Below are positions 371 through 58,285 of a DNA stretch of 64,000 bases, piece by piece (position 1 is the first letter of the stretch; every line of letters starts with the position of its first letter). The notes beneath the pieces were generated by a model. It was given only the letters and a program-made list of their open reading frames with translations, was not told the DNA's origin and did not search any database. This DNA is from Vibrio chagasii (GTDB taxonomy: Bacteria; Pseudomonadota; Gammaproteobacteria; Enterobacterales; Vibrionaceae), in the NCBI GenBank assembly GCA_041879415.1, contig CP090852.1:1762970-1826969 (forward strand), given 5' to 3'. A program made the translations under genes and the position numbers.

Positions 371-2095
371 ATGGAATCGACTCAAATGATGCAATCTAAG
401 CTGCTAATTCAACGACGAGTACAGCCTTTTCTGGCTCGGTTAAGCACGGACAATGTGATTCTATTTGGGCTGTTGGCATTTTTGTCTGTAGTCATGACGC
501 TGTTTATCCTGATGCCTTTGTGGGCGATGCTGAAAAAAAGCGTTCAGAATGCGGATGGCGAATTTGTAGGTCTACAGAACTTCGCTACGTATTTCGCTTC
601 GCAAAGCCTTTGGCAATCCGTGGGTAACACATTTACGCTTGGCATACTGGTAACGGTTGTCGTTGGTGTTTTGGCGTTTGGTTATGCTTATGCCTTGACT
701 CGCTCATGTATGCCTTTTAAAGGGTTATTTCAGGTGTTGGGCTCTGCGCCTATCCTTGCACCGTCGCTGCTTCCAGCAATCAGTTTGATTTTTCTGTTCG
801 GTAACCAAGGCATAGCTAAAGAAGTCTTAGGCGGCAACTCGGTATATGGCTTAATTGGCATCTCACTAGGTTTGATATTCTGGACGTTTCCACACGCTTT
901 AATGATTCTTACTACCTCATTAAGAACCTCGGATGCACGCTTGTATGAAGCGGCTCGCGCACTGAATACTTCATCTTTCAAAACCTTCTTCATGGTCACG
1001 TTACCTGCAGCCAAGTATGGGCTGATCAGTACACTTATCGTGGTGTTTACGCTAGTGGTTTGTGATTTTGGTGTGCCAAAGGTCATTGGTGGTAGCTACA
1101 ACGTTCTATCGACGGATATTTTTAAGCAGGTAGTTGGTCAGCAAAACTTCTCGATGGGTGCGGTGACCAGTATTTTACTGCTATTGCCAGCATTGTTAGC
1201 CTTTACCGTTGATCGTTGGGTGCAAAAGAAGCAGAAGAGTTTGTTTGATACTCGCTCAGTAGCCTACCAGCCAGAGCCGAACGCCCTGCGTGACGGTGCA
1301 TGTTTTCTGTACTGCGCAGTGATATCCGCGGCTGTGGTCATTGTTCTCGGTATGGCGGTATACGGCTCCATGGTCACTTTTTGGCCTTGGAACAAAGCCC
1401 TTACGCTGAATAACTATAACTTTGCAGAAATGAGCACCTATGGTTGGACTCCATTCTTCAACTCATTAACGTTAGGTGCATGGACAGCGATAATCGGTAC
1501 CATACTGATTTTCTTAGGCGCGTACTGTATTGAGAAGGGTAGAGCGTTTGGTCCTGTTCGTCAGGCAATGCAGATGCTCAGTGTGGTACCTATGGCGGTT
1601 CCGGGGATGGTACTGGGTTTGGGTTACATCTTTTACTTCAATGACTTGAGTAATCCACTTAACTTCTTGTATGGCACAATGGCGTTCTTGGTGATAAACA
1701 CTGTGGTTCACTACTACACGGTGGGTCACATGACGGCGTTAACTGCGTTAAAGCAGCTGCCTGCGGAAATTGAAGCAACGGCGGCCTCGGTAAATCTTCC
1801 GCAATACAAGTTGTTCTTTAAAGTGACGGTACCCGTTTGTCTGCCTGCCATTTTAGATATTGCGATATACCTGTTTATTAATGCACTTACCACTACATCT
1901 GCGGTAGTATTCTTATATTCTACCGATACGATACCTGCGTCAGTTTCAGTACTGAATATGGACGATGCAGGGCAAACCGGTGCAGCAGCGGCCATGGCGG
2001 TGATGATCATGATATCCGCAGCGAGTGCGAAGTTGATTCATATGTTGATCAATAAGTTATTTGAGAAGCGCACTCAAGCTTGGCGAAAGCGCTAG
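371..2095 (+). CDS. ABC transporter permease, two fused permease domains (2-aminoethylphosphonate, PhnU-like)
   Basis: A 574-residue inner-membrane protein built of two homologous BPD_transp_1 halves. Each half has an EAA loop that docks on the ATPase: one near residues 193-215 (LYEAARALN) and one near 465-493 (AEIEATAAS). About twelve hydrophobic segments are visible. One chain therefore supplies both permease units, as in FbpB-like iron and PhnU-type AEP importers, whereas other AEP systems encode two separate permeases. It starts 6 bp after the ATPase stop and is surely co-transcribed with it. A PhnR-like regulator 68 bp downstream supports AEP as the substrate; from this gene alone, iron or another small ligand could not be excluded. 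Confidence 0.82.
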   Translation: MESTQMMQSKLLIQRRVQPFLARLSTDNVILFGLLAFLSVVMTLFILMPLWAMLKKSVQNADGEFVGLQNFATYFASQSLWQSVGNTFTLGILVTVVVGVLAFGYAYALTRSCMPFKGLFQVLGSAPILAPSLLPAISLIFLFGNQGIAKEVLGGNSVYGLIGISLGLIFWTFPHALMILTTSLRTSDARLYEAARALNTSSFKTFFMVTLPAAKYGLISTLIVVFTLVVCDFGVPKVIGGSYNVLSTDIFKQVVGQQNFSMGAVTSILLLLPALLAFTVDRWVQKKQKSLFDTRSVAYQPEPNALRDGACFLYCAVISAAVVIVLGMAVYGSMVTFWPWNKALTLNNYNFAEMSTYGWTPFFNSLTLGAWTAIIGTILIFLGAYCIEKGRAFGPVRQAMQMLSVVPMAVPGMVLGLGYIFYFNDLSNPLNFLYGTMAFLVINTVVHYYTVGHMTALTALKQLPAEIEATAASVNLPQYKLFFKVTVPVCLPAILDIAIYLFINALTTTSAVVFLYSTDTIPASVSVLNMDDAGQTGAAAAMAVMIMISAASAKLIHMLINKLFEKRTQAWRKR

Positions 2096-2163
2096 CGAAC
2101 CATTTTATATTGCAGTTGGCCAAGGAGTGGCTGACGACAAGAATAAGAATGAAAGGAAATTAA

Positions 2164-2868
2164 GTGCAGTACGTAAAAATCAAAGATGTCATCGTAGAGC
2201 AGATTGAGTCTGGGATGTTAACACCACGACAAAAACTGCCTGCAGAACGTAAACTCGCTGAGTCGTTTGATACGACGAGAGTGACGCTACGTGAAGCATT
2301 ATCCTCACTTGAAGCGGAAGGGCGCATTTATCGAGAAGACCGACGTGGTTGGTTTATCTCACCAGCGCCACTTCGCTACGACCCAACTCAAACGCTAAAC
2401 TTCACCAACATGGCGTTGTCGCAGAATCGACAGCCGAAAACTGAGCTGATCGCAGCCAAAGGGGTGTTAGCCACCAAGGAGGCGACTAAGCTTCTTGAAC
2501 TACCTCCTTTCTCAGACGTTTATCGCGTAGATAGAGTTCGTTATCTTGAAGATAGGCCAGTTGTGTATGTGACAAACTATATCCGACCAGAGCTTTTTCC
2601 GAATTTGCTTGAACATGATTTATCGAAATCACTGACGGACATTTACCGTGAGCATTTTGGTGTGGTGTATCAGAAGATCCGTTATCGCGTGAGCACAACG
2701 TCGCTATTGGGCGAAACAGCACAAGCTCTGCGCGCGACTTCAGGTTCTCCGGCAATGGTAGTAGAGCGCATTAACTACAACCAAAACGGCGATTTGATTG
2801 ATTGTGATATTGAGTATTGGCGCCATGACGCAATCAGTATTGAATCGATAGCCCAGCTCGAGCGCTAA
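2164..2868 (+). CDS. phnR: GntR-family regulator of phosphonate (AEP) utilisation, PhnR-like
   Basis: A 234-residue regulator of the GntR/HutC type: an N-terminal winged helix (residues 1-70, with LPAERKLAESF and TTRVTLREALSSLEAEG) and a C-terminal UTRA ligand-binding domain (about 95-230, with VYRVDRVRYLEDRPVVYVTNY). Translation starts at GTG 2164, preceded by AAAGGA; the nearest upstream ATG (2150) runs into a stop after four codons. It follows the AEP ABC genes on the same strand and ends in a terminator at 2942-2966. Family knowledge: UTRA regulators bind the pathway substrate and control the adjacent uptake and degradation genes. The degradation genes (phnW/phnX) are not in view, so the symbol rests on neighbourhood and similarity. 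Confidence 0.72.
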   Translation: MQYVKIKDVIVEQIESGMLTPRQKLPAERKLAESFDTTRVTLREALSSLEAEGRIYREDRRGWFISPAPLRYDPTQTLNFTNMALSQNRQPKTELIAAKGVLATKEATKLLELPPFSDVYRVDRVRYLEDRPVVYVTNYIRPELFPNLLEHDLSKSLTDIYREHFGVVYQKIRYRVSTTSLLGETAQALRATSGSPAMVVERINYNQNGDLIDCDIEYWRHDAISIESIAQLER

Positions 2869-2941
2869 TCAAACCGATATAGTGTTGTTAACTAGCGGGT
2901 CTCTCCTAATTCTGTAGGGGCGTCCGGTTTCAATGATTTAA

Positions 2942-2966
2942 GGTCTCTCATTCAGAGACCTTTTTT
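2942..2966 (+). terminator. Intrinsic terminator after the AEP operon
   Basis: GGTCTCT, a 5-nt loop, AGAGACC, then six T. It closes the operon ending with the GntR-family regulator. Confidence 0.85.
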
Positions 2967-3025
2967 ATCACTTCAATTAAGCTGTTGCTTTTATTTAGTT
3001 ATTTACCAATTTAATTAGGAAAGAA

Positions 3026-3928
3026 ATGGAATTCTCTGCCATTGTTATCGTCATTATCTCCGCTTTACTACATGCGGGTTGGAATGTTCTCGGTAAATCT
3101 AACCAAGGATCTGGTTCATCGTTTTTCCTAGCCTCTGGAGTTGCAGCTGCAGCGATATTGAGCCCTTATCTTATCTGGTATGTCGATAATGTTGGATTTT
3201 CAAATATCTCACTTCCATTTTGGCAATTGGTTTTGCTTAGTGGGATATGCCAAATCATTTATCTAATTGGTTTAGGTGCTGCTTATAAACAAGCGGATAT
3301 TGGTGTGATTTATCCAATGGCTCGAGCATTGCCTGTCTTAATGGTTGGCTTGGGTACCGTATTGATTGGTTATGATCTTACCGTTAATCAATGGGTTGGA
3401 TTTGCACTGATCACATTAGGCTGCTTGTTTGTTCCATTGAAACAGTTCTCTGAACTAAGGCTCAAAGCCTATCTGAACCTTGGCGTGCTTTGGGCGCTTA
3501 TCGCTGCTATCGGCACCACAGGCTATTCCATTATTGATAAAGAAGCGCTGCTGTTATTGGAGCCTTTAAGTACAACGGTTATTACCAACAAACACACGGC
3601 GATTTTCTATTTAGGTATTCAGTTTTGGGCAATCGTGATTCCGCTGAGCATTTGGTTACTGGTAACTAACCAAAGTGTCGAGTTTACGAATGCTTGGGCA
3701 CTACGCAAGAAGGCCACTCTGGCCGGCATTATGATGGCGTCGACTTACGGATTGGTGTTGTTTGCAATGACCATGACAGAGAACGTCAGCTTGGTCGTTG
3801 CTCTCAGACAAGTGAGCATCATCTTCGGTGTGGTGATGGGGATCTACTTTTTAAAGGAAAAGTGGCACATGACTCGCGGTATAGGCGTTGTTTTGATTCT
3901 CATCGGTCTAGTTACTTCGCTGATTTAA
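3026..3928 (+). CDS. EamA/DMT-family inner-membrane transporter
   Basis: A 300-residue, very hydrophobic protein with about ten membrane segments in two EamA repeats (about 4-140 and 150-300). Typical DMT signatures are ALLHAGWNVLGK near the start and PMARALPVLMVGLGTVLIGY in the first repeat. The start follows AGGAAAG with good spacing. The DMT superfamily exports amino acids and other small metabolites; the substrate cannot be read from the sequence. It lies between the AEP regulator and the gluconate TRAP operon but has its own terminator-like hairpin (3956-3981), so it is probably a monocistronic unit. Its link to either neighbour is unproven. Confidence 0.8.
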   Translation: MEFSAIVIVIISALLHAGWNVLGKSNQGSGSSFFLASGVAAAAILSPYLIWYVDNVGFSNISLPFWQLVLLSGICQIIYLIGLGAAYKQADIGVIYPMARALPVLMVGLGTVLIGYDLTVNQWVGFALITLGCLFVPLKQFSELRLKAYLNLGVLWALIAAIGTTGYSIIDKEALLLLEPLSTTVITNKHTAIFYLGIQFWAIVIPLSIWLLVTNQSVEFTNAWALRKKATLAGIMMASTYGLVLFAMTMTENVSLVVALRQVSIIFGVVMGIYFLKEKWHMTRGIGVVLILIGLVTSLI

Positions 3929-3955
3929 AGTCATTTTTATATCTCATATCACCCT

Positions 3956-3981
3956 AAAGTGTGACTTTTTGGTCACATTTT
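3956..3981 (+). terminator. Hairpin after the EamA gene (terminator, or CRP-like palindrome)
   Basis: TGTGAC-TTTTTG-GTCACA, extended by A/T pairs to about 10 bp each side with one G-T wobble, and ending in TTTT. It can act as a terminator. The TGTGA/TCACA arms also resemble a CRP site, but with 8 rather than 6 bases between them, which argues for the terminator reading. Confidence 0.5.
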
Positions 3982-4046
3982 CCTTATTGATAGCAAACGT
4001 TTTACTAATGTTAAAGATGTGATCCTCCTCATAGACAAGGCTGTAA

Positions 4047-4083
4047 AGTTACCGGTAACATCCACCTCAACGTTACCGGTAAC
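4047..4083 (+). promoter_or_regulatory. Tandem GntR (LacI-family) operators upstream of the TRAP-gntK-gnd genes
   Basis: Two perfect palindromes GTTACCGGTAAC at 4048-4059 and 4072-4083, with centres 24 bp apart, lie 46-82 bp before the start of the TRAP binding-protein gene. They match the known gluconate-repressor (GntR/IdnR) operator consensus of enteric bacteria (ATGTTACC-GGTAACAT class). A third, slightly imperfect copy stands before the LacI-family gene at 9352. Inference: the local repressor binds here and releases on gluconate or a derivative. Confidence 0.85.
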
Positions 4084-4128
4084 ATATAACAACAAGCCGG
4101 ACTCTGTGAAACTCATAAGGATACCCAA

Positions 4129-5145
4129 ATGAAAGCTCTGACTAAAACGCTGATTGCTGCTTCCCTCACTGGCCTATTTGCTACTTCAGCAATGGCTGCA
4201 GACTTTAAACTTAAGATTCAATCTTCAGACCCTTCTGGCGATTTGAACTTCAAGGTTCAGCAGAAGTGGGCTGAGCGCGTAGAAACGATGTCTAACGGAC
4301 GCATCGACATCGACCTTCTACCAGTTGGTGCTGTGGTTAAGCACACCGAAACACTAGGCGCTATTAAGATGGGTATCCTAGATGGCCATATCACAGCAAC
4401 GGGTTACTTCTCAGGTAAAGATCCTGCTTTTGGTCTAATCGGTAACATGGTTGGTGCATGGTCAGATACAACTCAGCTGCTTCAGTATATGAACTACGGC
4501 GGTGGTAACGAGCTAATGACTGAGCTTTACAAGCCTTACGGTGTTCAATTCGTAGGTGCATCAACAACAGGTGTTGAGTCTTTCATCTCTAAAAAGCCAA
4601 TCGACGGTGTTGATGATCTGAAAGGTCTTAAACTGCGTGCGCCAGAAGGTCTAGTGCAACAAGTATTTGCCGCTGCAGGTGCAACCCCTGTAAACCTGCC
4701 TGGCTCTGAAGTATTTACTGGCCTAAGCAAGGGCGTAATTGATGCTGCTGACTACACGGTATTTTCGACAAACCAAAAAGCGGGCATGAACGATATCGCG
4801 ACTCACCCAGTCCAACCTGGTTTCCACTCACTGCCGCTTATCGATATCTCTGTTTCTCAGAAAAAATGGGACAAGATGCCAGCGGATCTTCAAACCATCC
4901 TACAAACATCAGTTCGTGACTTCTCTTACGACATGACGACTCAGCTGAAAATGGCTGACCAAGCGGCGGTTAAAGAAGCACAAGCGAACCCAGAAATCAC
5001 TATTCATGACTGGTCTCAAGAAGAACGTAAGAAGTTCCGTGAGATTGCAAAAGGTCAATGGAAAGTATTCGCAGAGCGTTCTGAGAACGCACAGAAAGTT
5101 TATGATTCAGTAACTGTGTTCCTAGAAGACAACGGCTTACTGTAA
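4129..5145 (+). CDS. TRAP transporter periplasmic solute-binding protein, DctP family
   Basis: A 338-residue protein with a clear signal peptide (MKALTKTLIAASLTGLFATSAMA, cleaved before ADF) and the DctP fold; DLKGLKLRAPEG is the usual region holding the arginine that pairs with a ligand carboxylate. It captures an organic acid in the periplasm and delivers it to the DctQM membrane pair encoded next. The following genes are gluconokinase and 6-phosphogluconate dehydrogenase and the promoter carries GntR operators, so gluconate or a related sugar acid is the probable ligand. That is inference: most studied DctP proteins bind C4-dicarboxylates, sialic acid or other uronates. A hairpin downstream may make this cistron more abundant than the permease genes. 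Confidence 0.85.
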   Translation: MKALTKTLIAASLTGLFATSAMAADFKLKIQSSDPSGDLNFKVQQKWAERVETMSNGRIDIDLLPVGAVVKHTETLGAIKMGILDGHITATGYFSGKDPAFGLIGNMVGAWSDTTQLLQYMNYGGGNELMTELYKPYGVQFVGASTTGVESFISKKPIDGVDDLKGLKLRAPEGLVQQVFAAAGATPVNLPGSEVFTGLSKGVIDAADYTVFSTNQKAGMNDIATHPVQPGFHSLPLIDISVSQKKWDKMPADLQTILQTSVRDFSYDMTTQLKMADQAAVKEAQANPEITIHDWSQEERKKFREIAKGQWKVFAERSENAQKVYDSVTVFLEDNGLL

Positions 5146-5768: not shown

Positions 5769-7083
5769 TTTATCTTCGATTGGTATCGCATGGGGCAGTT
5801 TACTCATGCTAGTTATGATGATCGGTTTGCTACTTACGGGTATGCAGCTGGCTTTCGTAACAGGCTTTGTTGCCATTTTCTTCACGCTATGTTGGTTTGG
5901 CCCTGATGCATTACCTTTGATTGCGAGCCGTACTTACAGCTTTGCTTCTGGCTATGTTTTCCTCGCAGTACCAATGTTTGTGTTGATGGCGGCTCTCTTG
6001 GACCGGTCTGGTATCGCACGTGACTTGTTCGATGCAATGAAATCTGTTGGTCGTAAGGTTCGTGGTGGCGTTGCAGTACAAACCTTATTGGTAGCCGTTT
6101 TGCTCGCTTCGATGTCTGGTGTTATCGGTGGCGAAACTGTACTGCTAGGCATTCTTGCTCTACCTCAAATGCTTCGCTTAGGTTACGACCGCAAACTTGC
6201 GATCGGCACAACCTGTGCGGGTGGCGCGCTTGGCACCATGCTGCCACCAAGTATCGTTTTGATCATCTACGGTATGACAGCCAGTGTTTCAATTGGCGAC
6301 TTGTTTAAAGCATCGTTTTTACCAGCGTTTATCCTTGCAGGTTGTTACATCGGTTATGTACTAATTCGTTGTAAGTTAAACCCTTCTCTTGCTCCTATCC
6401 CTAGTGATGAAGAGACAGTAGAAGACATCGCGAATCAGCCTAGTTACTTCAAAGCGCTGTTCTTCCCACTGCTTTCTGTTGCAACGGTTCTAGGTAGTAT
6501 TTACACCGGTATCGCTTCAGTAACGGAAGCGTCAGCACTGGGTGTGGTTGGTATCATGATCAGCGCGTTAATTCGTGGTGAGCTGAACTTCAACATGCTG
6601 AAAGAGAGTGCCATCGCGACCATGCGTACCTGCGGCATGATCATGTGGATTGGTATCGGTGCGAGTGCACTGGTTGGTATTTACAACTTGATGGGCGGTA
6701 TTGATTTTGTTGAAGAAACCATCCTTGCGCTAAGTGGCGGTAACGCAATGGTTACGCTGTTAATCATGATGGCAATCTTGCTAGTGCTTGGTATGTTCCT
6801 TGACTGGGTAGGTGTAGCACTTCTTACCATGCCAATCTTCGTTCCAATCATTACAGGCCTTGGTTTTGACCCTGTGTGGTTTGGTGTTGTGTTCTGTCTA
6901 AACATGCAGGTGTCTTTCTTGTCACCACCGTTTGGTCCAGCGGCATTCTACTTAAAATCGGTAGCGCCAAAAGACATTAGCTTGGGCGAGATTTTCTCTT
7001 CACTACTGCCGTTCATTGGACTTCAAATATTCGTGTTGGCCATGGTTATTATCTTCCCTCAGCTTGCGCTTTGGTGGCAATAA
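5755..7083 (+). CDS. TRAP transporter large permease subunit, DctM family
   Basis: A 442-residue membrane protein with about twelve hydrophobic segments. Family motifs include GGALGTMLPPSIVLIIYG in the first half and FLSPPFGPAAFYLKSVAP in the second, which correspond to the two re-entrant hairpins of the ion-transporter fold. It overlaps the DctQ-like gene; ATG 5755 or 5761 could start it. With DctQ it forms the Na+-coupled importer. Downstream, two hairpins separate it from gluconokinase, but the same strand, context and shared operators suggest one gluconate regulon. Confidence 0.87.
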   Translation: MTMFDLSSIGIAWGSLLMLVMMIGLLLTGMQLAFVTGFVAIFFTLCWFGPDALPLIASRTYSFASGYVFLAVPMFVLMAALLDRSGIARDLFDAMKSVGRKVRGGVAVQTLLVAVLLASMSGVIGGETVLLGILALPQMLRLGYDRKLAIGTTCAGGALGTMLPPSIVLIIYGMTASVSIGDLFKASFLPAFILAGCYIGYVLIRCKLNPSLAPIPSDEETVEDIANQPSYFKALFFPLLSVATVLGSIYTGIASVTEASALGVVGIMISALIRGELNFNMLKESAIATMRTCGMIMWIGIGASALVGIYNLMGGIDFVEETILALSGGNAMVTLLIMMAILLVLGMFLDWVGVALLTMPIFVPIITGLGFDPVWFGVVFCLNMQVSFLSPPFGPAAFYLKSVAPKDISLGEIFSSLLPFIGLQIFVLAMVIIFPQLALWWQ

Positions 7084-7702: not shown

Positions 7703-9211
7703 ATGACTCAGATAAAAAATGATATTGCGATGATTGGTTTGGGTGTCATGGGCAAGAGCCTAGCGCTTAACCTGCTTGATAATGGATTTAATGTTGCAGG
7801 CTTCGACCTTAATCCTGACAACATTGAACGCGCGAATTCAGAAGCCAAGCTGATCAACGAATCCTTTGAAGGAAAAGGAGAGTTCACCAAAGGCGCTAGC
7901 CTCGAGCATGTATTGCAAGGGTTAGCTAAACCACGAGTTATTGCATTGTCGGTTCCTGCAGGAAAGCCGGTCGATATCGTCGTAAATAACCTGTTGGATG
8001 CGGGGCTGGAAAGCGACGATATTGTGATCGACACGGGTAATAGCCTGTGGACTGATACCGAGACTCGCGAGTTGAACTACAAAGGTAAGCTTCGCTTTTT
8101 CAGTACTGCTGTTTCTGGTGGTGAAGAAGGGGCTCGTGTCGGTCCTGCGTTGATGGCAAGCGGTGATCAGTCGGCTTGGCAATATGTAAAACCAATGTGG
8201 GAAGCGATTGCTGCCAAAGTAGATGCGAACGGTTTGCCCGTTGCTCAATTTGAAGTAGGCGAAGCATGTGCTGCGTATGTCGGTCCTTCAGGTACAGGCC
8301 ACTACGTTAAGATGGTACACAACGGTATTGAATACGCTGACATGCAGCTTATTTGTGAGGTGTACCATTTCATGCGTGATGTTCTGAAAATGCCGGCGCA
8401 AGAGATTGGTCAAGTTTTCGAACAGTGGAACAATGGCGTACTGAACAGCTACCTGATGGAGATCAGTGCTGACATCCTTCAACAAGAAGATGTAGTGACT
8501 GGTAAGCCATTTGTCGAGGTTGTACTTGATAAAGCAGGCCAGAAAGGCACAGGGCTTTGGACAGCAGTCAACAGCCTTCAAGAAGGTTGTCCAACCCCAA
8601 CAATTGCACAGGCGGTTTATGCACGCGCGATGAGTGGTCAAAAATCACAGCGTATCCAAGGCAGCAAGCTGCTAAAAGGTAACATTGCTGATGCAAGCCA
8701 GCTGGATAAAGCTGAGGTCATCTCAGAGTTACATGACGCACTCTACTGCGCCAAACTGTCTGTTTATGCACAAGGCTTTGACTTGTTGAAGACAGCATCT
8801 GACAAAGAAGGTTGGAACCTGGATTTCACTCAGATCGCTAAGATCTGGCGAGCAGGTTGTATTATCCGTGCGGCTTTCTTACAGAGTATCACTGCGGCGT
8901 ATCAACAAAATGGAGAACTAGCGAACCTGTTGTTTGATGCGGCTTTCATCAAACAAGTGGAAGAGCGTGAGCTTGCTTGGCGTATTGCGGTTGCTAACTC
9001 TGCTTTATATGGAGTACCGATGCCAGGGATTAGCTCTGCATTGAGCTACTTTGATTCTCTGCGCTGTGAAGTGTTGCCTGCGAACTTACTGCAAGCACAA
9101 CGGGACTATTTTGGTTCTCACACATACTCTAGAGTCGATAGAGATGAAGTGGAAAAGTTTCATGTGACTTGGAGTCAGTCTCCAAGAACGGAAGTAAAGG
9201 TCAACGCTTAA
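7703..9211 (+). CDS. gnd: 6-phosphogluconate dehydrogenase (decarboxylating)
   Basis: A 502-residue enzyme, slightly longer than E. coli Gnd (468). The dinucleotide loop GLGVMG is at 12-17; the catalytic segment GTGHYVKMVHNGIEY has the lysine at about 203 and the substrate-binding HN at 206-207. It oxidises and decarboxylates 6-phosphogluconate to ribulose 5-phosphate, feeding the pentose phosphate pathway. The gene is 3 bp behind gntK and ends at a terminator (9221-9243). Vibrios normally also carry a housekeeping gnd near zwf, so this is probably the inducible copy; I cannot see the other gene. NADP+ is the expected cofactor, but cofactor choice was not verified. Confidence 0.9.
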   Translation: MTQIKNDIAMIGLGVMGKSLALNLLDNGFNVAGFDLNPDNIERANSEAKLINESFEGKGEFTKGASLEHVLQGLAKPRVIALSVPAGKPVDIVVNNLLDAGLESDDIVIDTGNSLWTDTETRELNYKGKLRFFSTAVSGGEEGARVGPALMASGDQSAWQYVKPMWEAIAAKVDANGLPVAQFEVGEACAAYVGPSGTGHYVKMVHNGIEYADMQLICEVYHFMRDVLKMPAQEIGQVFEQWNNGVLNSYLMEISADILQQEDVVTGKPFVEVVLDKAGQKGTGLWTAVNSLQEGCPTPTIAQAVYARAMSGQKSQRIQGSKLLKGNIADASQLDKAEVISELHDALYCAKLSVYAQGFDLLKTASDKEGWNLDFTQIAKIWRAGCIIRAAFLQSITAAYQQNGELANLLFDAAFIKQVEERELAWRIAVANSALYGVPMPGISSALSYFDSLRCEVLPANLLQAQRDYFGSHTYSRVDRDEVEKFHVTWSQSPRTEVKVNA

Positions 9212-51095: not shown

Positions 51096-51875
51096 TTACA
51101 TTACCAGTCTAAGATCCGTCAATGGAAGTGGCTTCGAGTACAGGAAACCCTGGCAGCGATCGAAGCCAAGCTGGTGGACACGTTGATGTGTATCAACATC
51201 TTCAACGCCTTCCGCTACAGTTTCAATTCCAGACGCTTTGCAGTAAGCCAAAGTTTGCTGGATTAGCGCAGAGCGAGAGCTGTCTTCGCTATTTACGATC
51301 GATTTATCAAATTTCACTTCATCGACATCAAGGTTCATCACCTTATTCATGTCTGAGTAACCCACACCGAAATCATCGATAGAGATTTTGATACCAAGCG
51401 CTTTATAGCGTCTAACCTGTTCGCAGAGCTCTTCATCCCATTGATCTGCTTCACTGAGTTCGAACGTTAACTGTTTTCCCTTGAATGAAGTATTCCAAAG
51501 TAGTTCACGCACCTTTTCTACATTATCTGGGTTCGCTAATACTTTCTTGCTGATATTAACAGCCAAGTTCAAATGTGCTGATAGCGACTTCACTTCAGTT
51601 AAAGATTGCTCAAGGACACTAAAGAAGATCTCTTCTTCGTAACCTAATGCGAAAGCACGATCAATGAACACACCAGGTGAAAAGACACCTTCTTCGGGAA
51701 TATTCAGACGAAACAGAGCTTCCACGCCTGTCACTTTCTCTGCACTCGATTCTACTTTTGGTTGATAAAAGCAGGTGTGCCAGTCGTTTTCGAAGGCTTC
51801 TTGAATGATGTGATCGGATAGTGTCATGGGCTTGTTTCTCATCTTATCTTGGTCATCTGTGTAACGGCCGCACAT
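51096..51875 (-). CDS. Stand-alone EAL domain c-di-GMP phosphodiesterase
   Basis: A 259-residue protein that is essentially one EAL domain. All catalytic elements are present: EALFRL (52-57), the asparagine in AVNISKKVL, the glutamate in LTFELSE, IDDFGVGYS, the lysine in VKFDKSIV, ETVAEGVE and QGFLYSKPLP. It should linearise c-di-GMP in the cytoplasm; with no sensor domain its activity is probably set by expression or partners. ATG 51875 is used; ATG 51842 (MRNKPMTLSD) is an alternative that would not affect the domain. Confidence 0.9.
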   Translation of the reverse strand: MCGRYTDDQDKMRNKPMTLSDHIIQEAFENDWHTCFYQPKVESSAEKVTGVEALFRLNIPEEGVFSPGVFIDRAFALGYEEEIFFSVLEQSLTEVKSLSAHLNLAVNISKKVLANPDNVEKVRELLWNTSFKGKQLTFELSEADQWDEELCEQVRRYKALGIKISIDDFGVGYSDMNKVMNLDVDEVKFDKSIVNSEDSSRSALIQQTLAYCKASGIETVAEGVEDVDTHQRVHQLGFDRCQGFLYSKPLPLTDLRLVM

Positions 51876-56048: not shown

Positions 56049-56294
56049 ATGGTACGAGTAGACGTCAGAAAACTATCTAACACACTAATCAGTGCAGGCG
56101 TTCCAGAGAAAAGAGCGGTGTTGCTTGCCAAAGCATTTAAAGATTCAATTAATGAAATCGATCCCGTCTCTCAATCGTATGTGAACAAGAAGATTGAGAA
56201 ATCCAAAAATGAAACTCTTCAATACCTGTTGGCTTTTCTAGGGCTACAGATGATCTTGATTCCGTGTTTTCACTACATCATGAGTAACCTGTAG
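56049..56294 (+). CDS. Small coiled-coil/tail-anchored protein
   Basis: An 81-residue protein from ATG 56049 (MVRVDVRKLSNTLISAG); a TTG four codons upstream is less likely. It has a helical N-terminal part resembling UBA-like or DUF1640-type segments (AGVPEKRAVLLAKAFKDSI), then a charged helix, then one membrane helix at the end (LLAFLGLQMILIPCFHYIM). It is probably a membrane-attached small protein of unknown role. A terminator at 56368 separates it from the chemoreceptor operon. Confidence 0.55.
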   Translation: MVRVDVRKLSNTLISAGVPEKRAVLLAKAFKDSINEIDPVSQSYVNKKIEKSKNETLQYLLAFLGLQMILIPCFHYIMSNL

Positions 56295-56367
56295 CACCAG
56301 GTACTAACCATCTTACTGTTGAGGAACCTAATCGAACATCTCATTTGTAAGAAAAGCAATCTACTCA

Positions 56368-56393
56368 GCCAGTCGTCAATGACTGGCTTTTTT
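56368..56393 (+). terminator. Intrinsic terminator upstream of the chemoreceptor-nsrR operon
   Basis: GCCAGTC-GTCAAT-GACTGGC followed by six T. Confidence 0.88.
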
Positions 56394-56425: not shown

Positions 56426-56457
56426 AACTTGCATTAAAAATGCATGTTTAATAATAT
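56426..56457 (+). promoter_or_regulatory. NsrR operator overlapping a sigma-70 promoter, upstream of the chemoreceptor-nsrR operon
   Basis: An 11-1-11 palindrome at 56426-56448, with left arm AACTTGCATTA and right arm AAATGCATGTT. It fits the known NsrR consensus arms (AAGATGCATTT / AAATGCATCTT) with two mismatches on the left and one on the right. A -35 TTGCAT (56429-56434) and -10 TAATAT (56452-56457) are spaced exactly 17 bp, so a protein bound here would cover the -35 and spacer. A further half site, TATGCATCT, follows at 56456-56464. Inference: NsrR represses this promoter and so its own gene. Confidence 0.75.
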
Positions 56458-56571
56458 GCATCTAAAATATAGGTTATGATCGAAGCTAACTGTGTGGATA
56501 GCCTCGCTTATATGTGCTCATCTTCGTTTTATCTAACTTAGACTATCTATCAATGAAAATTAAGGGTTGCT

Positions 56572-57738
56572 ATGCGTTCACTTTTTATCCGGATGAGGTT
56601 CATTCACTGGCTAGGGACATTATTACTTTTTATTAACGCTACTTTTCTTACTGATGCTTTGGTATCCCAGATAATTCAATATGTTATCGTTGTTTTCTTG
56701 ATTATCCACGATCTCGATGAAAAGTTCTGGGGAGTGGATTCACTCAATCATGTCACTCAATATATGAAGAACTTCGAGCGAAAAGATCTTTCCGTTGATT
56801 GTGATGTGAATAGTAAATACAACAGTGAAATGGACAGAGTTTTGAGTGTGATTAATACATTCCGAACCAACGTGAGACATGCGTTAATCGATATTCAAGA
56901 GCAGGCCGCTAAATCAGACAGTATTGCAGATCTCTTAAAGATTAAGTCGCAAAATATATCAGGGCGGATTCAAGAGCAGGACAGCCGAGTTAATGTCTTG
57001 AACGATCGTGTAGAAACGTTGGATCGAACTTCTCTAGCACTTCAAGAGAAAGCAGAAGAGACTCGCACTCAAGTCGAACATACCCAAGTTGGGCTTGAAG
57101 CTTCTAACCAAACGATGGGAGCCATGGTGAATGATCTAAATAAATATATTGAGAGCAATAACCAACTGCAGAGTAAATTTAAAGAGCTTTCACAACAGAC
57201 ACAGTCTATCGGTAGCGTTGTTTCGGTGATCAATACACTGGCTGATCAAACGAATTTACTGGCATTGAATGCTGCTATTGAAGCTGCAAGAGCAGGAGAG
57301 CACGGTCGAGGCTTCGCGGTTGTGGCTGATGAAGTAAGAAATTTGGCTAAGTCCACACAGGACAGTCTTGATGAGATTAACCAAATCATCAACGGCATAT
57401 CAGAAGCTGTTGTTGATGCGGGAAAGCAGATGGAAGATCAAGCGTCGGCTATTTTTACGCTTTCGGACTATACAACAACGAGTCAGCAAGAATTGGACAC
57501 CGCATGTGCTAATATTAGTCAGATTTTGAACTTGATTGGGCAAGATTCAGATGAAGATAATGTGGATATTCGCCAGGTTAACCAACTCGTGAGTGAAGTA
57601 AGTCACGAGATTGAAGCACTTCAAACCTTGTCGAGTTCCAATGCTCAAGATTGTAGTGAACTGGAGCGACAGGGGCGATCGCTAACGGAAGCCACAGAAA
57701 ACATTGTGAAACAGTTAGGTAAATTTAAAACTCAGTAA
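56572..57738 (+). CDS. Methyl-accepting chemotaxis protein without a periplasmic sensor domain
   Basis: A 388-residue chemoreceptor. Two hydrophobic helices (about 9-26 and 33-46) are joined by only about six residues, so there is no periplasmic ligand domain. A cytoplasmic linker (47-110) leads to the signalling coiled coil, with the kinase-control tip [34 protein letters not shown] at about 222-256. No C-terminal CheR-tethering pentapeptide is seen. It sits behind an NsrR-like operator and 30 bp before nsrR, so nitric oxide stress should raise its expression. The signal sensed is unknown: perhaps membrane energy state, NO or redox through the short membrane part. Confidence 0.9.
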
Positions 57739-57768
57739 TAAAATTGGTGGGCATAAAGGAGCCTTAGC

Positions 57769-58209
57769 ATGAGAATTACCAGTTTTACCGATTATGGGTT
57801 AAGAACATTAATCTATCTTGCGTGTTTACCCAAAGATGAACTGAGCAGTGTCCCTAAAGTTTCTCAAGTCTACAAGGTCTCGCAGAATCATATGGTTAAG
57901 GTGATTGGCCAACTCAAGAAGCTCGGCTATATCGAGGCTTTAAGAGGTAAAGGCGGTGGTATTCGCCTTGCGGTTTCACCTGAGCAGGTAAGAATTGGTC
58001 GTGTGATGAGAGAGTTAGAGCCACATACCGATGGCGTGGACTGCTTAAGCTCACCGTGTGTTTTATTACCAAAGTGTAAGTTGAAAGCAGCATTGGCCGA
58101 GGCCATGGAGAGCTTCTTTTCAACGATGGACCAATATACCTTGGCTGACCTTGTTGAAAATAAAGAAGTCGCATCCCAAATCCTCATTCAAATGAGTGGA
58201 GATGAATAA
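57769..58209 (+). CDS. nsrR: Nitric-oxide-sensitive repressor NsrR (Rrf2 family)
   Basis: A 146-residue Rrf2-family regulator with the winged helix at residues 1-65 (MRITSFTDYGLRTLIYLA...) and iron-sulfur cysteines C92, C97 and C103 (C-x4-C-x5-C), the spacing of NsrR rather than IscR. NsrR holds an Fe-S cluster that reacts with NO, lifting repression of NO-detoxifying genes such as hmp. Here it is downstream of a chemoreceptor gene, and the operon promoter carries a matching operator, implying autoregulation. The usual neighbours (rnr, hmp, norVW) are not in the window. A terminator follows. Confidence 0.9.
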   Translation: MRITSFTDYGLRTLIYLACLPKDELSSVPKVSQVYKVSQNHMVKVIGQLKKLGYIEALRGKGGGIRLAVSPEQVRIGRVMRELEPHTDGVDCLSSPCVLLPKCKLKAALAEAMESFFSTMDQYTLADLVENKEVASQILIQMSGDE

Positions 58210-58247
58210 ATACGCTAACAATGTGTTGCTTCTCTGGATATAAAAAG

Positions 58248-58285
58248 AAACCCCGATACTGATCACTCAGTATCGGGGTTTTGTA
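58248..58285 (+). terminator. Bidirectional terminator between nsrR and the DUF819 gene
   Basis: A 15-bp perfect stem AAACCCCGATACTGA / TCAGTATCGGGGTTT with loop TCAC; T run on the right and A-rich on the left. Confidence 0.92.

Follow-up and report, generated by a model that had tools for sequence, protein, structure and literature searches.

A chemoreceptor gene co-encoded with NsrR in Vibrio chagasii and the putative nitric oxide control of its receptor family

Nitric oxide (NO) acts both as a host defence and as a signal in partnerships between animals and microbes. A stretch of 64,000 nucleotides from the genome of Vibrio chagasii, referred to here as the window, bears on the way in which motile marine bacteria steer in relation to this gas, given that it contains a chemoreceptor gene followed closely by a gene for a repressor of the NsrR type. 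It may be asked, then, whether the receptor is made under the control of NO, and what it might sense once it has been made.

The NsrR regulon of Escherichia coli and other proteobacteria includes hmp, ytfE, hcp, and nnrS, according to two studies (PMC1274295, PMC5320621), and another describes a pair formed by nsrR and nod in Vibrio vulnificus (PMC6391409); the words “chemotaxis” and “mcp” are absent from the main text of PMC1274295. The window resembles the known regulons in its Rrf2-type NsrR with the C-x4-C-x5-C motif and in its 11-1-11 operator, but differs from them in that the target is a chemoreceptor, and in that the hmp, norV, and nnrS genes of the same genome have no NsrR site. The sequence-only reading of this DNA had taken the known NsrR targets to be NO-detoxifying enzymes, an account that is incomplete, as a 2009 study by Partridge already connects E. 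coli NsrR with motility in its title; the targets in that case are said to be flagellar genes and not a receptor. The link between NsrR and swimming is common to both cases, and in the window a receptor and the regulator share an operon.

In the open-access literature, outside which most subscription journals lie, no report was found of a chemoreceptor associated with norVW or of a chemoreceptor for NO taxis. Similarly, the titles and abstract openings of the open-access papers listed on these subjects describe no link between NsrR and a chemoreceptor, an earlier mention elsewhere being possible.

The operon and its promoter

The genome comprises 5.2 Mb, and the window forms the end of its second contig (1.83 Mb). 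The receptor gene (56572-57738, + strand) is an open reading frame of 388 amino acids, with a two-helix membrane hairpin and an MCPsignal domain, and it is followed by nsrR (57769-58209, + strand), which encodes 146 amino acids of the Rrf2 family with Asp8 and the C-x4-C-x5-C motif. These coordinates leave a gap of 30 bp, exactly as the sequence-only reading had it, and the pair is flanked by terminator-like hairpins, one of them intrinsic, upstream of the operon (56367-56388, + strand), and the other bidirectional, downstream of nsrR (58247-58282). Two other reading frames of the window may be mentioned here, that is, a small one of 81 amino acids with a hydrophobic end (56049-56291, + strand), which has no match in either Pfam or NCBIfam, and one approximately 4.6 kb upstream of the operon on the opposite strand (51096-51875, - strand), whose product resembles an EAL domain by eye and has no apparent link to the operon.

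The palindrome at 56426-56448, AACTTGCATTA-A-AAATGCATGTT, has nine of its 11 arm positions paired, as counted by eye. It had been described as a 23-bp 11-1-11 palindrome close to the NsrR operator, and this description is borne out by a matrix derived from the 18 E. coli NsrR sites listed in Table 4 of PMC5320621, which is independent of the loci studied here. With this matrix, the palindrome scores 24.5 bits, which falls within the range of the training sites themselves (11.5-29.3 bits), as expected of an NsrR operator, and well above the control, for which the regions upstream of 231 other genes from the loci under study were scored; here the median is 3.5 and the 99th percentile 14.8 bits. 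The only other 23-mer of the 64-kb window that exceeds 11 bits is a candidate second operator of 12.2 bits in the same promoter (56453-56475), 27 bp downstream of the first, which overlaps the second promoter hexamer. The pattern AANNTGYATNNNNNATRCANNTT, which was composed after the site had been seen, unlike the E. coli matrix, has its only exact match in the whole genome at the receptor promoter, and occurs at 78 places when up to two mismatches are allowed; the same pattern, reversed to serve as a control, occurs at 71.

The palindrome had also been said to cover a promoter of the form TTGCAT-17-TAATAT. These hexamers are present letter for letter (56429-56457, + strand), the first of them within the operator, and their spacing recurs in relatives, given that a reading by eye places TTGCAT or TTGTAT within the operator, with a TAxxxT hexamer 17 bp further on, both in the window and in ten other loci (L083-L089, L093, L107, and L108). 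The element is a weak match to the sigma-70 consensus and was not reported by a promoter scan of the region.

Nitric oxide regulators across the receptor family

When residues 1-140 of the receptor were used as a query, relatives were found in 21 of the 329 family genomes searched and in nine of the 394 from the order, the own genome being present in both sets. The genome searches provided 23 close members, including that of the window, the other 22 being 59-71% identical over the full length, together with five divergent members of 34-39% identity; one gene split over two contig ends (G298) was excluded from every count. Three plasmids bring the close members to 26, with copies on a plasmid of Shewanella sp. 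ANA-3 (72% identical), on pSA70-2 of S. putrefaciens (71%), and on pIDH5335-3 of Vibrio fluvialis (59%). The full-length query matched at 1e-60 in at least three of 227 genomes of the same genus, on the basis of the best eight candidates per genome for most of them, and a query with the hairpin in 369 genomes of the class found no match at E 1e-4 other than that of the window itself. With regard to INDEPENDENCE, many members are near kin, and the plasmid cluster of V. fluvialis nearly equals that of G222 (norV 99.8%), so the member counts are not independent. In a tree of 30 receptors, the well supported branches can be explained only if the norVW link arose two or more times and the nsrR-pair label changed four or more times.

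A tie to an NO regulator, whether through an operator, an adjacent nsrR, or a position after norV-norW, is found in 24 of the 26 close members (23 of 25 without the window), and in 18 of them an NsrR-type operator of at least 16.3 bits precedes the receptor or its operon. In six close members the receptor is followed by nsrR, and the operator scores are 24.5 bits in the window, 16.4 bits in G354, and 26.4 bits in both G464 and G452, while G549 has two operators, of 24.3 and 23.9 bits, ahead of an operon of four genes to which the pair belongs; for the sixth, G540, the operator cannot be judged, as only 138 bp separate the operon from the end of the contig. The sequence-only reading had proposed that the palindrome should be conserved in genomes which keep the receptor-nsrR pair, and an operator is present in four of these five relatives, the fifth being the one at the contig end.

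Among the 20 close members that have no nsrR next to them, 13 carry an operator, five are located after norV-norW, and two show neither feature. The 13 (L083-L094 and L104), which have no neighbouring nsrR or norVW, have operators of 16.3-26.0 bits, and their genomes carry nsrR elsewhere in all 12 of L083-L094 and NsrR-like genes elsewhere in L104. An earlier count by consensus found, for each of the 12 loci L083-L094, that no more than three of 500 shuffles equalled the best site. The 17 operators that lie directly before a receptor vary in sequence as well as in their distance from its start, which ranges from 37 to 185 bp, and in the seven-member clade L083-L089 the operator columns are invariant at 15 of 23 positions, against 62 of 238 elsewhere. 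Only two of the 231 control regions score above 16.3 bits, and as one of them (24.3 bits) turns out to be the promoter from which the receptor operon of G549 is read, the corrected control rate is one in 230; two sites of the Moritella group stand near this control edge, at 16.4 and 16.3 bits, and were equalled by five and 24 of 500 shuffles.

In the five divergent members, no NsrR-type site was found upstream (maximum 8.8 bits), and none was found for the two Shewanella plasmid copies (best 3.4 bits), which have neither a match that reaches 14 bits nor an nsrR within 14 kb. These two plasmids are of the same type and carry the receptor beside silver and copper resistance genes, and in this resistance region (L150 and L151, approximately 6430-6614) the receptor is preceded by a small “CCGSCS motif protein”.

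The five members located after norV-norW (G222, G252, the V. fluvialis plasmid, G394, and G426) are similar to NorR-controlled norVW operons in their position, and the difference is that here a chemoreceptor follows. The norV and norW of the four genomes are 74-99.8% and 47-99% identical, respectively, to those annotated on the V. fluvialis plasmid. No NsrR-type site was found within 300 bp upstream of these five receptors (maximum 5.2 bits), and the region before norV contains at least three GT-N7-AC boxes in all five cases (four in L110) and three of the stricter GTC-N5-GAC boxes in each, a number which none of 300 shuffles reached. A -24/-12-like element also precedes norV, reading TGGCACGGTACCTGCA in L109 and L110 and GGCATGCCTTGTGC in L095, L096, and L152, so that the three boxes and the -24/-12 element by which a NorR-controlled norVW operon may be recognised are found in all five relatives. 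The idea that genomes of the norVW type would be devoid of NsrR was abandoned, as it held for only one of four (G222), with NsrR being present elsewhere in G252, G394, and G426.

In three of the five (G222, G252, and the V. fluvialis plasmid), a DUF1971 gene stands between norW and the receptor, which directly adjoins norW in G394 and G426. Genes of this type beside norW or nsrR are located at L095 6788-7126 (oriented), L096 7117-7443 (oriented), L152 5792-6133, and L046 6577-6906, the assignment being based on Pfam for L152 and on tblastn for the other three.

The four-gene operon, observed in L105 (oriented 1213-4201) and L106, consists of an ORF of unknown type, an EAL phosphodiesterase, the chemoreceptor, and nsrR, and two NsrR-type operators stand ahead of all four genes in L105. 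The EAL c-di-GMP phosphodiesterase that precedes the pair in G549 and G540 is recognised by Pfam at 128.6 and 115.7 bits, respectively, and its presence in an NsrR operon would couple NO to both the motility output and the breakdown of a second messenger. A hemerythrin-like identity for the first ORF was considered and dropped, as it has no Pfam match.

Given that the operator is kept with the pair, and that the unpaired members have operators of their own or lie behind norV-norW, the NO-controlled expression of the receptor family is well supported by comparison. The comparison of sequences likewise supports the operator, the pairing of the two genes, and the repeated association of the receptor family with NsrR or NorR, and the proposal of an NO-regulated receptor operon, as made in the sequence-only reading, gains from the 23 of 25 other close relatives that are tied to an NO regulator. 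As the family is apparently placed under NO control by two unrelated regulators, this suggests that its receptors are made only on meeting NO, and it names a concrete gene and promoter for the study of NO-linked steering.

Two other accounts of the operator would leave the receptor with no part in this control. The palindrome might have arisen by chance in intergenic DNA that is AT-rich, where the composed pattern, at two to three mismatches, is no more frequent than the background, but its score relative to the controls and its conservation in relatives already contradict this account, which is hardly credible. It might also be the case that NsrR regulates only itself, with the receptor as a neighbour that is carried along, considering that nsrR genes are often preceded by NsrR-type sites, with 15 bits being reached in 30 of 41 cases. 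This seems very improbable, given that all 13 of the members from the genome searches without an adjacent nsrR or norVW have their own NsrR-type site, and that five others follow norV-norW; the two Shewanella plasmid copies, which have neither nsrR nor norVW nearby, lack a site. Taken generally, this account already stands contradicted.

The membrane hairpin and what it may sense

In Pfam, MCPsignal (PF00015) is the sole family above its cut-off in the receptor (120.3 bits, cut-off 34.6), with a coiled-coil match below the cut-off (E 0.001), and H-NOX, PAS, globin, and Cache domains were not found, nor was any other recognised ligand-binding domain; residues 1-80 alone have no Pfam match at E values up to 10. 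The structural model (mean pLDDT 83, pTM 0.41) has one helix at residues 2-26, a turn, a second helix at 30-69, and a long cytoplasmic hairpin, and its 16 fold matches in the PDB at E values of 0.001 or less are all chemoreceptors or pieces of them, including some integrative models. The MCPsignal domain and the conserved tip thus identify the protein as a chemoreceptor. The lack of a periplasmic domain and the near absence of an outer loop, as proposed earlier, are retained, but the turn is modelled as three residues rather than the approximately six first suggested.

The membrane hairpin and the signalling tip are the most conserved parts of the receptor, with invariant positions in 28 proteins amounting to 20 of 58 in the hairpin and its exit and to 39 of 70 in the tip, against 7/72, 2/72, and 3/116 in the linker and helices. 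The conserved hairpin (residues 1-58, encoded by 56572-56745, + strand) follows the pattern SLFxRMRxxHW...N...Q...HDxDEKxWGV, and its invariant polar residues His12, Asn22, Gln36, and His46 are roughly mirrored about the turn, with His12 and His46 located 16 and 18 residues from it and Asn22 and Gln36 located six and eight residues away. This conservation suggests that the hairpin is probably the sensor.

Intramembrane-sensing histidine kinases sense through a pair of helices joined by hardly any outer loop, and the receptor of the window would share this arrangement, but with the output of a chemoreceptor rather than that of a kinase. Among the chemoreceptors linked to gases, Aer2 carries a PAS-heme sensor. 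Other classes are the H-NOX-MCP chemoreceptors, with a heme NO/O2 sensor (PMC9814294), and the sCache_heme chemoreceptors (PMC12889525). The receptor is similar to these heme-sensor proteins in its signalling domain and in a possible link to a gas, and differs from them in the absence of the H-NOX, PAS, globin, and Cache domains.

We think it likely that the pair forms a self-regulated NO-switch operon which would supply the chemoreceptor on demand, with the hairpin as an intramembrane sensor. By analogy with the known NsrR systems, we infer that, when NO is absent, NsrR with its iron-sulphur cluster would occupy the operator inside the promoter and keep both genes low, that NO would damage the cluster and thereby take NsrR off the DNA, so that the receptor and the repressor would be made, and that newly made NsrR would shut the operon once the NO is gone. 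The two-helix hairpin would read a cue in or at the membrane and relay it to the standard signalling tip, and the cells would then swim by a cue that is relevant under NO, the most likely candidates being the gas itself and the arrest of respiration that it causes. A role of the receptor in taxis is likely, and it may follow that exposure to NO reprogrammes taxis, for example, during host contact, as had been proposed from the sequence; the nature of the cue and the direction of the response are points on which we can only infer.

The cue may also be something other than NO, and it is possible, although not what we would expect, that the NO-induced receptor senses energy or redox conditions, such as the redox state of quinones or the membrane potential, which would help the cells to leave zones in which NO has halted respiration. 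The lack of any known NO-binding domain in Pfam fits such a receptor, as do the invariant Asn, Gln, and His residues of the hairpin, which would serve in quinone or proton sensing, and the norVW and nsrR contexts, which are markers of respiratory stress, but the absence of any Pfam match for residues 1-80 speaks against it. A more specific version of the preferred reading, which we regard as rather unlikely, is that the hairpin acts as a novel gas sensor in the membrane, in which the invariant His12 and His46, at about equal depth at the inner face of the antiparallel helices, would hold heme b or a metal in the receptor dimer and bind NO. This would be an NO receptor for taxis that is made only once NO is present, with NsrR or NorR setting the gain, and in one lineage the NsrR operon would add an EAL c-di-GMP phosphodiesterase and join taxis with biofilm release. 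The RxRxxHW motif of the receptor resembles what we take to be the heme-ligand motif of cytochrome b561, and homology to this protein (PF01292) was not detected for residues 1-80 in Pfam at an E value of 10. It is less probable still that the receptor senses no gradient at all, its induction by NO merely shifting the bias of the array, with tumbling being raised or lowered for as long as the NO lasts. No ligand-binding domain is recognised, as such a ligand-free receptor would have it, but 20 invariant residues out of 58 in the hairpins of 28 proteins would then be unexpected while the linker and helices drift. If, as the preferred reading of an NO-switch operon would have it, the hairpin binds NO or senses the respiratory block, the inputs of chemoreceptors would gain an intramembrane class whose sensor is very small.

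The repressor and its other possible targets

The protein encoded by nsrR contains the Rrf2 domain (PF02082, 110.6 bits), and its best NCBIfam model is that of NsrR, at 170.3 bits against 47.8 for the IscR model; as this is below the cut-off of 182 bits, the protein is called NsrR-like by sequence. The name is backed by the closest solved structure in the PDB, that of Streptomyces NsrR (5n07, E 1.6e-24), with which Asp8, presumably a ligand of the iron-sulphur cluster, and the three cysteines align, and the C-x4-C-x5-C motif noted previously was recovered.

The distribution of nsrR in the genus is patchy, with matches below 1e-30 in 31 of 95 genomes by hand count and matches of IscR strength only, or none, in the rest, and the best 29 matches in other genomes of the family are all at most 54% identical. 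A scan of a contig collection, which detects near relatives only, returned four NsrR loci, the nearest being those of Neptunomonas qingdaonensis, at 65% identity, and of Moritella sp. JT01, at 63%. In the NsrR tree, the six receptor-linked proteins group with the Neptunomonas NsrR with weak support (92/64) and do not form one clade, so that a dedicated subfamily of receptor-linked NsrRs is suggested rather than shown. In the Moritella group, six NsrR-like proteins distant from the receptors (L120, L121, L122, L124, L125, and L127) lack the C-x4-C-x5-C spacing, and no operator was found upstream of their genes (maximum 8.9 bits). A positive control for the matrix is provided by the nsrR upstream regions, 30 of 41 of which score 15 bits or more.

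The V. chagasii genome also contains hmp (C2:482084), norV (C2:1306179, 67%), and nnrS (C1:252785), and the regions upstream of these genes have no NsrR site (best 1.3, 3.3, and 6.0 bits, respectively). The hmp region has three GTC-N5-GAC boxes and that of norV two (reached by none of 300 shuffles), and one occurs before nnrS (15 of 300 shuffles), with plain GT-N7-AC counts before norV and nnrS being at about the level of chance. A scripted search of the three upstream regions reported no -24/-12 element, and by eye similar elements can be read as GGCACTGATTGTGCA in the hmp region and GGCACGACTAGTGCA in the norV region. The boxes fit control by NorR, best for hmp and norV, and the control of hmp and nnrS by NorR in V. 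cholerae is described in PMC1274295.

As hmp, norV, and nnrS have no NsrR sites, the NsrR of V. chagasii may serve mainly its receptor operon. Among 23 operator-like places in the genome, taken from a search for whole sites in which the matches with two mismatches were covered as far as C1 2.9 Mb, two further operator matches above 16.5 bits (17.7 and 17.2) lie within open frames of 172 and 599 amino acids, and an intergenic match of 16.0 bits at C1:2048033 (L011 1501-1523), approximately 45 bp before an ORF that resembles a LysE-type exporter by eye, makes a second NsrR target possible. Finally, the Neptunomonas nsrR (L046), 65% identical to that of the window, adjoins genes that resemble a SUF cluster by eye, and NsrR-type sites of 16.5-20.2 bits are located by these genes (5816-5873 and 7919-7941), so that iron-sulphur assembly may be under NsrR control in this organism.
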